Source: Flavobacteriales bacterium
GTDB taxonomy: Bacteria > Bacteroidota > Bacteroidia > Flavobacteriales_C > GCA-002722245
Assembly: GCA_002722245.1 (NCBI GenBank)
Contig: PBLA01000033.1
Location: 130,813-194,812 of the forward strand
Length of the DNA stretch: 64,000 nucleotides
Direction: 5' to 3'
Both the position numbers and the translations under genes were made by a program. This document shows positions 5,024-24,580 of this stretch, piece after piece; the stretch's first letter is position 1; every line of letters starts with the position of its first letter. The notes beneath the pieces were generated by a model. It saw nothing but the letters and a program-made list of their open reading frames with translations. It did not search any database and was not told where the DNA came from.

Positions 5024-5047
5024 AAAAAAAGGGAGCAATGCTCCCTT
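5024..5047 (-). terminator. Rho-independent terminator of typA
   Basis: Perfect 6-bp stem GGGAGC/GCTCCC with an AAT loop (5031-5045). On the minus strand it is followed by seven T residues. It lies 25 bases past the typA stop and before sprE. Confidence 0.85.
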
Positions 5048-10936: not shown

Positions 10937-13363
10937 TCAATAAAGAACAGGATATTTTTCTGGATCAACTTCATTCATCATTTCATAGGCAGTATCAAAA
11001 ATAAGTTCGGGGTTAGGTTTACTAAAATAATTCCCATCCGATCCGTAGGCAGGACGATGATCCTGAGCGCTTAAAGCACGAGGTGGTGAATCTAAATGAA
11101 AATATCCGTCTTGTTCATCCAATATTTGTTGCATCATAAAACCAGTTGCCCCACCCGAAACATCTTCATCCAATACAATTAAACGATTCGTTTTTTCTAA
11201 AGACTTTTGGATACTGGAATTTATATCAAACGGCAATAAAGTTTGAACATCTATCAATTCAGCAGAAATCCCAACCTCTCTCAATGACTTTACTGATTCC
11301 TCTGCGATTCCAACACAGGAACCATAGGTAACAATAGTTAAATCCGTTCCCTCAATAATTACATCTGGAATACCCACTGGAACTCTGAACTCACCAAGGT
11401 TAGTAGGTAAATCTTCCTTTTTTCTGTAATGTAAAAGCGGTTCAATAACCAAAGATGGGTCATGTGCCTCTAAAAGAGTATTATACATCCCTGCTGCCTG
11501 TGTCATATTTCTTGGAACACAAATCACAAACCCCCTCATAGAATTAATGATCATTCCCAATGGTGAACCCGAATGCCAAATACCTTCAAAACGATGCCCT
11601 CTGGTTCGGATAATCATTGGGGATTTTTGACCACCTTTGGTTCGCCAATGTAAAGAAGCCACATCATCTGTTAAGGTCATTAAGCCATATACTAGATAAT
11701 CTAAATATTGAATCTCTGCAATAGGCCTCAACCCCCTAATAGCCATCCCAGAACCTTTCCCCATGATAGCGGCCTCTCGAATACCTGTATCAAAGACTCT
11801 TAATTCACCATATTTTTCCTGCAATCCCTCACAACCTTGATTAACACCTCCAATTTTACCAGTGTCTTCACCAAAAATGAACACCTTAGGATTTTTGGCT
11901 AATATCGCATCAAAGTTTTCTCGCAAAATAATTCTACCATCCACAAGATTACTGGACGCTTCATAAGTGGGAGCGATTTCTTTTATACTGGATGAGGAAA
12001 AATCCCCATGCGCATATAAAAGCGAATTATAACGATCATGATTCGCAATTTTTGATTCATTTAACCAATCTGCTAACCGTTGTTTTTCATCCGGAATATC
12101 TTCAAAACGCACCAGTCGAAGTACTTTTTTTGCACAACTAATCATATAGTTGCGATAAAGATCCATCTCTCCAGTGAGTTCATCTCTATATTTTTTAATG
12201 AACGTTCTGCTTCGGCTCTTTGATGCAATTGCATCAATCATACCTAACACCTCTGTTAACTCGGCCTTTAATGGCTCTATATATTCCTTCCACGCAGCAT
12301 TTTTAGCATCACGAACTACCTTTTTACATTGCTTGTGAATAGAGGACAACTCTTCTTCACTTGCCCAATTATTATCTAAAATCCATTGTTTAAACTGAAC
12401 AGTACAATCATACTTCGATTCCCACTCTAATCGTTCCTTAGACTTATAACGCTCATGCGATCCTGAGGTGGAATGACCCTGAGGCTGAGTTAATTCAACA
12501 ACATGCACCAAAACAGGTATGTGGTTTTCTCGAGCCAATTTAGCGGCTTTATCATAGGCTGCACATAATTCAGGATAGTTCCAGCCCCTTACTTTCAAAA
12601 TTTCTATCCCATTTGAACCATTTTCCTTCTTAAACCCTTTTAGCGCCTCTGATATACTTCCTTTTGTAGTTTGTTTTTCTACAGGGACAGAAATCGCGTG
12701 CCCATCATCCCAAACACTCATCACAACAGGAATTTGTAGAACACCCATTGCATTAATTGCCTCTAAAAAGATTCCTTCTGAGGTAGAACCGTCTCCAATC
12801 GTTCCAAATACTATTTCATTCCCATTATTTGAAAGCGTAGAAAACTGATGTAAATTTTCATCTTGTCGAAATAACTTAGATGCTAATCCCAATCCCATTA
12901 TTCTAGGCATTTGAGCTGCGGTTGGTGACAAATCTGTGGTAGTAATTTTCATTTTCGTCATATCTTTCCACGATCCATCAGCATTAATGAAACGAGATCC
13001 ATAATGACAATTCATTTGTCTCCCTCCCGAGTGCGGCTCATTCTCCAAATTGGTGTCTGAAAATAATTGAGCATAGAATTCTTTTAACGAAACTTCTCCA
13101 AGGGCAAGCATAATTGTCTGATCTCGATAATACCCGCTTCTATAGTCTCCATCCATGAATTGCTTTGCTAAACAGAGTTGAGCCAATTCTTTTCCATCGC
13201 CAAAAATACCAAACTTCGCTTTGCCAGTAAGTACCTCACGTCTACCCATTAAGGATGCCTCACGACTTTCCATCATGATTCGAAAATCATTCAGAACCAT
13301 TTCTTTTACTACATCTTTTTCCAATTTAGGATCAATCGATGAAGATTCTTTGTCGTTGCTCAT
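10937..13363 (-). CDS. Fused alpha-beta E1 component of a 2-oxoacid (branched-chain type) dehydrogenase
   Basis: An 808-residue protein joining both halves of a thiamine-diphosphate E1. The alpha half has the TPP motif beginning GDG (190-192) and ending near DDGHAISVP (219-227). The beta half, from about residue 477, has NFDAILAKNPKVFIFGEDTGK, VFDTGIREAAIMGKGSGMA, a WHSGSP segment and HRPAYGSDG near the C-terminus. It should decarboxylate a 2-oxoacid (2-oxoisovalerate or pyruvate type) and pass the acyl group to an E2 lipoyl domain. Such fusions are common in Bacteroidota. No E2 or E3 gene is adjacent. The last residue of the TPP motif is D rather than the usual N. The exact substrate cannot be fixed from sequence. 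Confidence 0.88.
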   Translation of the reverse strand: MSNDKESSSIDPKLEKDVVKEMVLNDFRIMMESREASLMGRREVLTGKAKFGIFGDGKELAQLCLAKQFMDGDYRSGYYRDQTIMLALGEVSLKEFYAQLFSDTNLENEPHSGGRQMNCHYGSRFINADGSWKDMTKMKITTTDLSPTAAQMPRIMGLGLASKLFRQDENLHQFSTLSNNGNEIVFGTIGDGSTSEGIFLEAINAMGVLQIPVVMSVWDDGHAISVPVEKQTTKGSISEALKGFKKENGSNGIEILKVRGWNYPELCAAYDKAAKLARENHIPVLVHVVELTQPQGHSTSGSHERYKSKERLEWESKYDCTVQFKQWILDNNWASEEELSSIHKQCKKVVRDAKNAAWKEYIEPLKAELTEVLGMIDAIASKSRSRTFIKKYRDELTGEMDLYRNYMISCAKKVLRLVRFEDIPDEKQRLADWLNESKIANHDRYNSLLYAHGDFSSSSIKEIAPTYEASSNLVDGRIILRENFDAILAKNPKVFIFGEDTGKIGGVNQGCEGLQEKYGELRVFDTGIREAAIMGKGSGMAIRGLRPIAEIQYLDYLVYGLMTLTDDVASLHWRTKGGQKSPMIIRTRGHRFEGIWHSGSPLGMIINSMRGFVICVPRNMTQAAGMYNTLLEAHDPSLVIEPLLHYRKKEDLPTNLGEFRVPVGIPDVIIEGTDLTIVTYGSCVGIAEESVKSLREVGISAELIDVQTLLPFDINSSIQKSLEKTNRLIVLDEDVSGGATGFMMQQILDEQDGYFHLDSPPRALSAQDHRPAYGSDGNYFSKPNPELIFDTAYEMMNEVDPEKYPVLY

Positions 13364-13667
13364 AACGTTTGGTTTTCAATATCTCCAATATGCCTTTAAG
13401 AGACCATCAGAAAATGTCTTTCGAATAGCTACTAAAATAGGAATTTATGCGTTGAATTAAAAGTATATAAACGTGAAGCGAAACTGTTTTTTATTATTTC
13501 ATTATAACAAAATCAGCCAGTAACAAGTATTATTTTTTTTTATGTGCATGATTTTTAATCGATAATTAAAATCTTTTAAGCTATAAAAAAACATCATTAG
13601 TCTAAATTTAACATCATATTACTCCTCTTGTAGTACATAAATAAACAACTAAACACTCATCACCACA
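13364..13667. other. Divergent intergenic region (304 bp)
   Basis: An AT-rich gap between the E1 gene (leftward) and the 58-codon ORF (rightward), so it should hold promoters for both. I see no further ORF, repeat or strong hairpin, and no exact TAnnTTTG. TAAATTTA just before 13610 is the nearest -7-like match for the small ORF. Confidence 0.5.
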
Positions 13668-13844
13668 ATGAAAAAATCAAAGAGAATACGCGTTAAAATT
13701 AGAAAAGCCAAAAGAGCTGCCCTTGCAGATATGGAAAATACAATGTCTTTAGGCAAAGATGTGTTGTATGACATGCTAAATGAAGGTCTGTATAATCCCT
13801 ACAGTCATTTAGATATAAAATCAAGCGAAACAATGGAGCAGTGA
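13668..13844 (+). CDS. Small basic protein, 58 residues, unknown
   Basis: An ATG-initiated ORF of 58 codons. It starts with a strongly basic segment (KKSKRIRVKIRKAKRAA, residues 2-18) and ends with a neutral-to-acidic tail containing LYDMLNEGLYNPYSHLD. It stands alone between leftward genes and is followed 15 bases later by a strong rightward terminator, which argues that it is transcribed as its own unit. There is no signal peptide and no recognised domain. The basic N-terminus suggests nucleic-acid or ribosome binding, but that is only inference. It is too short for most ORF cut-offs and could easily be missed in annotation. Confidence 0.6.
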   Translation: MKKSKRIRVKIRKAKRAALADMENTMSLGKDVLYDMLNEGLYNPYSHLDIKSSETMEQ

Positions 13845-13858
13845 AATGTGATTTAGAG

Positions 13859-13879
13859 GCGCACGAGAGTGCGCTTTTT
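13859..13879 (+). terminator. Rho-independent terminator after the 58-codon ORF
   Basis: Perfect stem GCGCAC/GTGCGC with a GAGA tetraloop, followed by TTTTT on the plus strand. There is no T-run on the other strand, so it is directional and serves the small ORF. Confidence 0.88.
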
Positions 13880-13882
13880 CAC

Positions 13883-14620
13883 CTATTCTTTTCCTATTAT
13901 TTTTTTTAAATCCTCCGGAGTATCAATTCCTATACTCTCATGATTAGTTTCTGCTACAAAAATTTGATATCCATACTCCAACCATCTTAATTGCTCCAAA
14001 GATTCACTTTTTTCTAACAACGAAGCAGACAACCGTACAATTTCTTGCAAAGTCTCTACACGGTAGCCGTACAAGCCAATATGCTTGTAATACGCTTGTT
14101 TACCAATCCATTCCTTTTGTACTGAATCCCGTAAAAATGGAATTGGATGACGAGAGAAATACAACGCTCGTTGATCTACTCCTGTAACTACCTTTACTAC
14201 ATTAGGATTTATTAATTCATCATGATTAGTTAACGCTTTTTTCAATGTCCCAATTTGAGCAGGAGTGGTTTTAAATAAGCCGATTAATTCCTCGAGTTGA
14301 GCGAAATGTATAAATGGCTCATCTCCCTGAATATTTACTACTACATCGAACTCGTTTGGAAGTTTTTGAATGACTTCTCCACATCGATCCGTACCACTTT
14401 GATGATTTTTATTTGTCATCATAACCTCGCCACCAAATTCACTAACAACGTTTTTAATCCGTTCATCATCCGTGGCTACAATCACTTTTTTAAAAAATCC
14501 TGAACTCAACGCTTTTTCATACACATGTTGAATCATCGGTTTGTCATGAATTAGCACTAACGGTTTTCCTGGGAAACGAGTGGATGCAAAACGCGCAGGA
14601 ATAATAGCAATCACTTTCAT
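13883..14620 (-). CDS. kdsB: 3-deoxy-manno-octulosonate cytidylyltransferase
   Basis: A 245-residue enzyme that activates Kdo as CMP-Kdo for lipid A-core lipopolysaccharide. It begins MKVIAIIPARFASTRFPGKP, the nucleotide-binding signature, and has ATDDERI (49-55), GTDRC (76-80) and NIQGDEPF (96-103; D100 is a metal-binding position). The length matches the family. It is cytoplasmic and its presence implies Kdo-containing LPS. It starts with ATG and stands apart, with the aminotransferase upstream on the same strand about 60 bases away. No anomalies are seen. Confidence 0.97.
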   Translation of the reverse strand: MKVIAIIPARFASTRFPGKPLVLIHDKPMIQHVYEKALSSGFFKKVIVATDDERIKNVVSEFGGEVMMTNKNHQSGTDRCGEVIQKLPNEFDVVVNIQGDEPFIHFAQLEELIGLFKTTPAQIGTLKKALTNHDELINPNVVKVVTGVDQRALYFSRHPIPFLRDSVQKEWIGKQAYYKHIGLYGYRVETLQEIVRLSASLLEKSESLEQLRWLEYGYQIFVAETNHESIGIDTPEDLKKIIGKE

Positions 14621-24551: not shown

Positions 24552-24580
24552 AAAAAAAGGCATCTCGAAAGATGCCTTTT
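24552..24580 (-). terminator. Bidirectional terminator for the YceI-DUF5777-DUF4271-HemD operon
   Basis: Perfect 7-bp stem GGCATCT/AGATGCC with a CGAA loop. There are seven T residues on the minus strand and four on the plus strand. It lies 19 bases past the end of the leftward operon. Confidence 0.9.

Follow-up and report, generated by a model that had tools for sequence, protein, structure and literature searches.

Among the orphan (ORFan) small-protein genes of bacteria, which are short and combine an intact frame and their own terminator with a want of convincing relatives, a 58-codon open reading frame from a Flavobacteriales genome finds its nearest likeness. It has all of these properties, nothing distinctive separates it from such genes, and it is known from its sequence alone. 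The closest RNA counterparts are the small RNAs (sRNAs) of Bacteroides thetaiotaomicron, for which the portion of PMC7366714 considered here gives 49 'high-confidence' terminator-bearing intergenic examples, among them 27 that are strain-specific. The locus described here resembles those strain-specific sRNAs in being intergenic, in carrying a terminator and in having no conservation that was found, and it differs from them, as far as that portion describes them, in its open frame, its open start region and the absence of a promoter motif among the sites found. The same portion reports Ribo-seq support for 7 of 409 predicted small open reading frames, in a study confined to conserved ones. For translation initiation the relevant background is Flavobacterium johnsoniae, where low structure and an A at positions -3 and -6 promote initiation, with positions -12 and -13 named beside them in the part of PMC6847099 considered.

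The small open reading frame and its terminator

The window, the whole 64,000-nucleotide stretch that was analysed, comes from a genome assembled into 34 contigs that total 3.0 Mb. The 58-codon frame runs from ATG to TGA at positions 13668–13844 of the plus strand and lies alone on that strand inside a 519-bp spacer. The genes on either side, both encoded by the minus strand, were assigned from the list of open reading frames and a family search: an 808-residue E1 dehydrogenase/transketolase-type protein (10937–13363) and a 245-residue CTP_transf_3 protein (13883–14620), which we take to be KdsB-like. The first-pass annotation had described a small ATG frame with a terminator on the strand opposite to both neighbours, and this was confirmed with the coordinates correct. 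The terminator does follow the stop codon, at 14 bases by our count instead of the 15 given there.

The terminator occupies 13859–13879 of the plus strand and was examined by sequence, fold, scan and simulation. It consists of the hairpin GCGCAC-GAGA-GTGCGC at 13859–13874, with a perfect 6-bp stem and a GAGA loop, followed by TTTTT at 13875–13879, so that the 3′ end has the intrinsic terminator typical of intergenic sRNAs. Folding of 13838–13882 gave -17.3 kcal/mol with a z score of -3.8. The hairpin is directional, because the minus-strand reading continues after it with CTCTAAAT and has no T run. A search for GCGCACNNNNGTGCGCTTTTT in its own genome gave a single match, at the terminator. A standard terminator scan of the window left the hairpin at 13859–13874 unlisted, probably because additional A-T and G-T pairing lengthens the stem and draws in bases of the T run. 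When greedy extension was removed the scan gave 12 terminator-like sites in the window and 13859–13879 ranked fourth, below 24555–24580 (counted on both strands) and 5029–5047, which follows a 606-residue frame. At 24555–24580 a strong hairpin, followed by a T run on either strand, separates two convergent reading frames and is probably a bidirectional terminator. A terminator of this kind within 70 bases of the stop codon was found for 3 of the 228 window frames of at least 40 residues, the other two frames encoding 259 and 606 residues.

Chance expectation was estimated from simulated 519-bp spacers, 4000 for each of three Markov models. Under the three models, 4.3%, 8.0% and 12.2% of the spacers contained, on one strand, an ATG frame 58 codons long or longer, and the frame is by itself weak evidence and unremarkable. 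An equally good terminator was obtained in 2, 4 and 2 of 600 simulated spacers, and the frame together with a terminator no more than 60 bases past its stop was obtained in 0 of 12,000. The combination of frame and terminator is not due to chance. A plus-strand transcript ending at 13875–13879 is therefore predicted as likely, given both the joint count of 0 in 12,000 and the 3 of 228 frames that are terminated in this way. The first-pass annotation had argued that a terminator with no other gene to serve implies a real transcript, and the simulation counts support the transcript as a prediction.

The plus strand of 13364–13882 was also searched for promoters. The TAnnTTTG/TAnnTTnG motif was not found there; in B. 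thetaiotaomicron 81% of primary start sites are preceded by a related motif, according to the part of PMC7366714 considered. Two sigma-70-type sites were found on the plus strand of this interval, one within the frame and one at 13504–13533, and such sites were fewer than in shuffled sequences. The recognisable promoter expected of an intergenic sRNA was thus not found on the plus strand of 13364–13882.

Coding signals and the predicted product

Codon use was scored with a model trained on window frames of about 150 residues or more. The 58-codon frame gave 0.05 bits per codon, exceeding 153 of 163 shadow frames (10 score at or above it) and 23% of 306 gene segments of 58 codons; the separation is approximate, as the gene segments were within the training set and the background contained the spacer of the frame itself. 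Codon use leans mildly towards coding.

The 30 bases upstream of the ATG (13638–13667, plus strand) contain no G, which is the case for 0.5% of ATGs and for 1 of 32 window genes. The start region from -30 to +20 is nearly unstructured, with a minimum free energy of -0.3 kcal/mol; among 1500 sampled ATGs 0.9% have a value this weak, as does 1 of the 32 window genes. The leader has A at -3, -6 and -13 and C at -12. By analogy with the Flavobacterium rules, in so far as the considered portion of PMC6847099 sets them out, this start region would suit translation. A start-context matrix built from the 32 ATG genes of the window, whose starts were taken as the longest frames and may be wrongly placed, scored the ATG at 13668 below all 32 training genes, and 77% of 2347 other ATGs scored at least as high. 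With pseudocounts included, A was present at -3 in 53% of these 32 genes and at -6 in 17%.

The product would be a protein of 6.7 kDa with a pI of 9.6. Residues 1–19 contain 10 Lys or Arg and carry a charge of about +9.5, in agreement with the basic N-terminus described previously, and residues 20–58 contain eight Asp or Glu and two Lys or Arg, with a charge of about -6.1. A single-sequence AlphaFold2 model gave one helix over residues 2–38 with a mean pLDDT of 82.6 and a pTM of 0.38, the pLDDT of the five models ranging from 67 to 83. A modelled Lys/Arg-rich helix of this sort can also arise from AT-rich chance sequence. For the activity of the product, our best guess is that the helix binds nucleic acid or an acidic partner, a rather doubtful guess drawn from charge alone.

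The product does not fit a type I toxin, meaning a small hydrophobic membrane peptide, given the 10 Lys or Arg among its 19 N-terminal residues and the acidic remainder. Antisense to the frame is a hydrophobic 41-residue frame at 13649–13774 of the minus strand, toxin-like by eye. It was rejected as a toxin and is probably the mirror of the Lys/Arg-rich frame, with a codon score of -0.05.

Relatives and the same site in congeners

A protein search of 198 relatives at E ≤ 0.1 gave three matches, the product itself and two weak ones, in two genomes of the class, with E values of 0.037 and 0.049. One of the weak matches lies inside a 311-residue frame; the other is a 48-residue frame with a TTG start whose end overlaps a 281-residue frame. 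The latter, at L003:1471–1617 in another genome of the class, resembles residues 6–41 at 39% (E 0.049). Among 198 genomes a few matches of such an E value per genome are to be expected. Both weak matches are taken as probable chance hits, the one at 0.037 less surely. Comparison with 147 loci by tblastn returned five copies of the frame itself, then these two weak matches, and nothing else under E 3. Their E values in this comparison, 8e-4 and 0.005 without composition correction, do not count as evidence, since the loci were themselves chosen with the same query.

Only the product itself was found in 10 genomes of the order (1 of 10) and in 395 genomes of the class (1 of 395), a set that partially overlaps the 198 relatives. 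A peptide-pattern search of GTDB contigs gave 121 stretches and a search of viral contigs gave 10, none of which was confirmed, and 13 phage records had a best E of about 2. The product had no match among plasmids, Pfam, NCBIfam, PADLOC or solved structures, and its best match in PHROGs had an E of 0.098 over 13 residues. Taken together, these searches of genomes, phages, plasmids, viral contigs and protein families turned up no convincing homologue. The translated search for short orthologues that the first-pass annotation had proposed as a check gave no convincing relative in the genomes searched.

At the DNA level, with the cutoff set as loosely as E 10, each of 60 genomes had matches to the spacer. 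The best match away from the site, among the matches listed, had an E of 3.9e-5 with 81% identity over about 50 bases and fell at 13531–13578, upstream of the frame; within the frame the matches listed were about 20–40 bases long with E values of 0.01 or more. An Rfam search of the whole window at the gathering score found no family; under permissive settings the spacer had two matches with E 4–5, far below the curated scores. Neither a known RNA family nor unusual folding was found in these searches and in the folding of the RNA without its terminator (z -0.5).

The three closest E1-gene loci in GTDB contigs, among the best 80 and by the E1 gene only, were 85–87% identical (L067–L069). The flanking kdsB-like and E1 genes are adjacent in three of four congeners (G001, G002 and G004); in the fourth (G003), which is 77% complete, neither flanking gene was found. 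In G002 the matches lie 153 bp apart, and the spacer there lacks a gene of this kind. The spacers of G001 and G004 are 583 bp and contain a 137-residue frame on the strand of its neighbours, which in G004 is DUF4259 by Pfam (E 6e-23) and in G001 is a close counterpart by eye. Visible alignment of the spacers is confined to some 80 bp next to the E1 gene (13364–13445, minus strand), where the window, from 13439 on the minus strand, reads TATTTTAG and matches three congeners. A TACTAA..TA.GAA block in this upstream region is kept in four genomes and may, from its sequence, be part of a minus-strand E1 promoter. The remaining segment of about 440 bp (13446–13882), which bears the frame and terminator, is missing from three congeners or has other sequence in its place; of the four genomes compared, each representing its species singly, only that of the window carries it. 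No hairpin comparable to that at 13859–13874 was found at the kdsB-like end of the G001, G002 and G004 spacers, and a scan of these spacers for stems of at least five pairs gave one, in G001 only and away from that end. As judged from the sequence comparison, the site between the kdsB-like and E1 genes varies, being empty or holding a DUF4259-type gene or the 58-codon frame.

Readings of the locus

The 58-codon frame is best read as an orphan monocistronic small-protein gene of an ordinary kind, to which we assign a probability of about 0.55. The plus-strand transcript would begin upstream of 13668, probably within 13446–13640, and translation would start at the ATG at 13668 with no Shine-Dalgarno element, as the sequence context suggests. 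The transcript would end at the T run at 13875–13879, where the terminator might also block antisense transcription into the kdsB-like gene, and the predicted 6.7-kDa product would combine a long basic helix with an acidic tail.

The main rival, a possible though doubtful one, is a species- or strain-specific intergenic sRNA that ends at the terminator and contains the frame fortuitously. By chance, 4–12% of such spacers hold a frame this long on one strand. The figures for B. thetaiotaomicron in the part of PMC7366714 considered also speak for this rival: 27 of 49 terminated intergenic sRNAs strain-specific, and 7 of 409 predicted small frames supported by Ribo-seq in the study confined to conserved ones. 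Against it are the unusually open start region and the codon score above 153 of the 163 shadow frames; the RNA minus its terminator also folds like its shuffles, a weak point with which an sRNA is still compatible. The first-pass annotation had left the choice between a small protein and a small RNA, and the evidence no more than tilts towards the protein: the start matrix is unfavourable, and neither a promoter consensus nor a convincing homologue of the protein or the DNA was found.

The variable site, empty in one congener and holding a DUF4259-type gene in two, would also fit a longer or acquired gene that has decayed, leaving this remnant and the terminator behind. This is improbable, as the ATG-to-stop frame is intact with the terminator in place, the Pfam, NCBIfam and PADLOC searches gave no match, and PHROGs gave just the match at E 0.098. 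A DUF4259 remnant in the spacer was tried and rejected, the best tblastn E being 0.79. It is more improbable still that the hairpin is the 3′ end of the minus-strand kdsB-like gene and that the frame is unrelated to it. Three bases lie between the T run and the end of the stop codon of the kdsB-like gene, which would agree with such an origin, but the hairpin read on that strand runs on without a T run, and the three congener spacers have no counterpart of it.

A further reading is unlikely: that the frame arose recently, either de novo or by capture, and encodes a small protein that binds nucleic acid, its gene being complete with a terminator and placed at a site, between the kdsB-like and E1 genes, whose occupant differs among congeners. 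If translated, the frame would be one more lineage-restricted small protein, and the variable site might be of use in tracing gene gain within a Flavobacteriales lineage that has received little study; if it is not translated, the locus is an orphan of the ordinary sort. DUF4259-type genes of 137 residues lie between kdsB-like and E1 genes at L055:396–809 on the minus strand and L054:327–740 on the plus strand.
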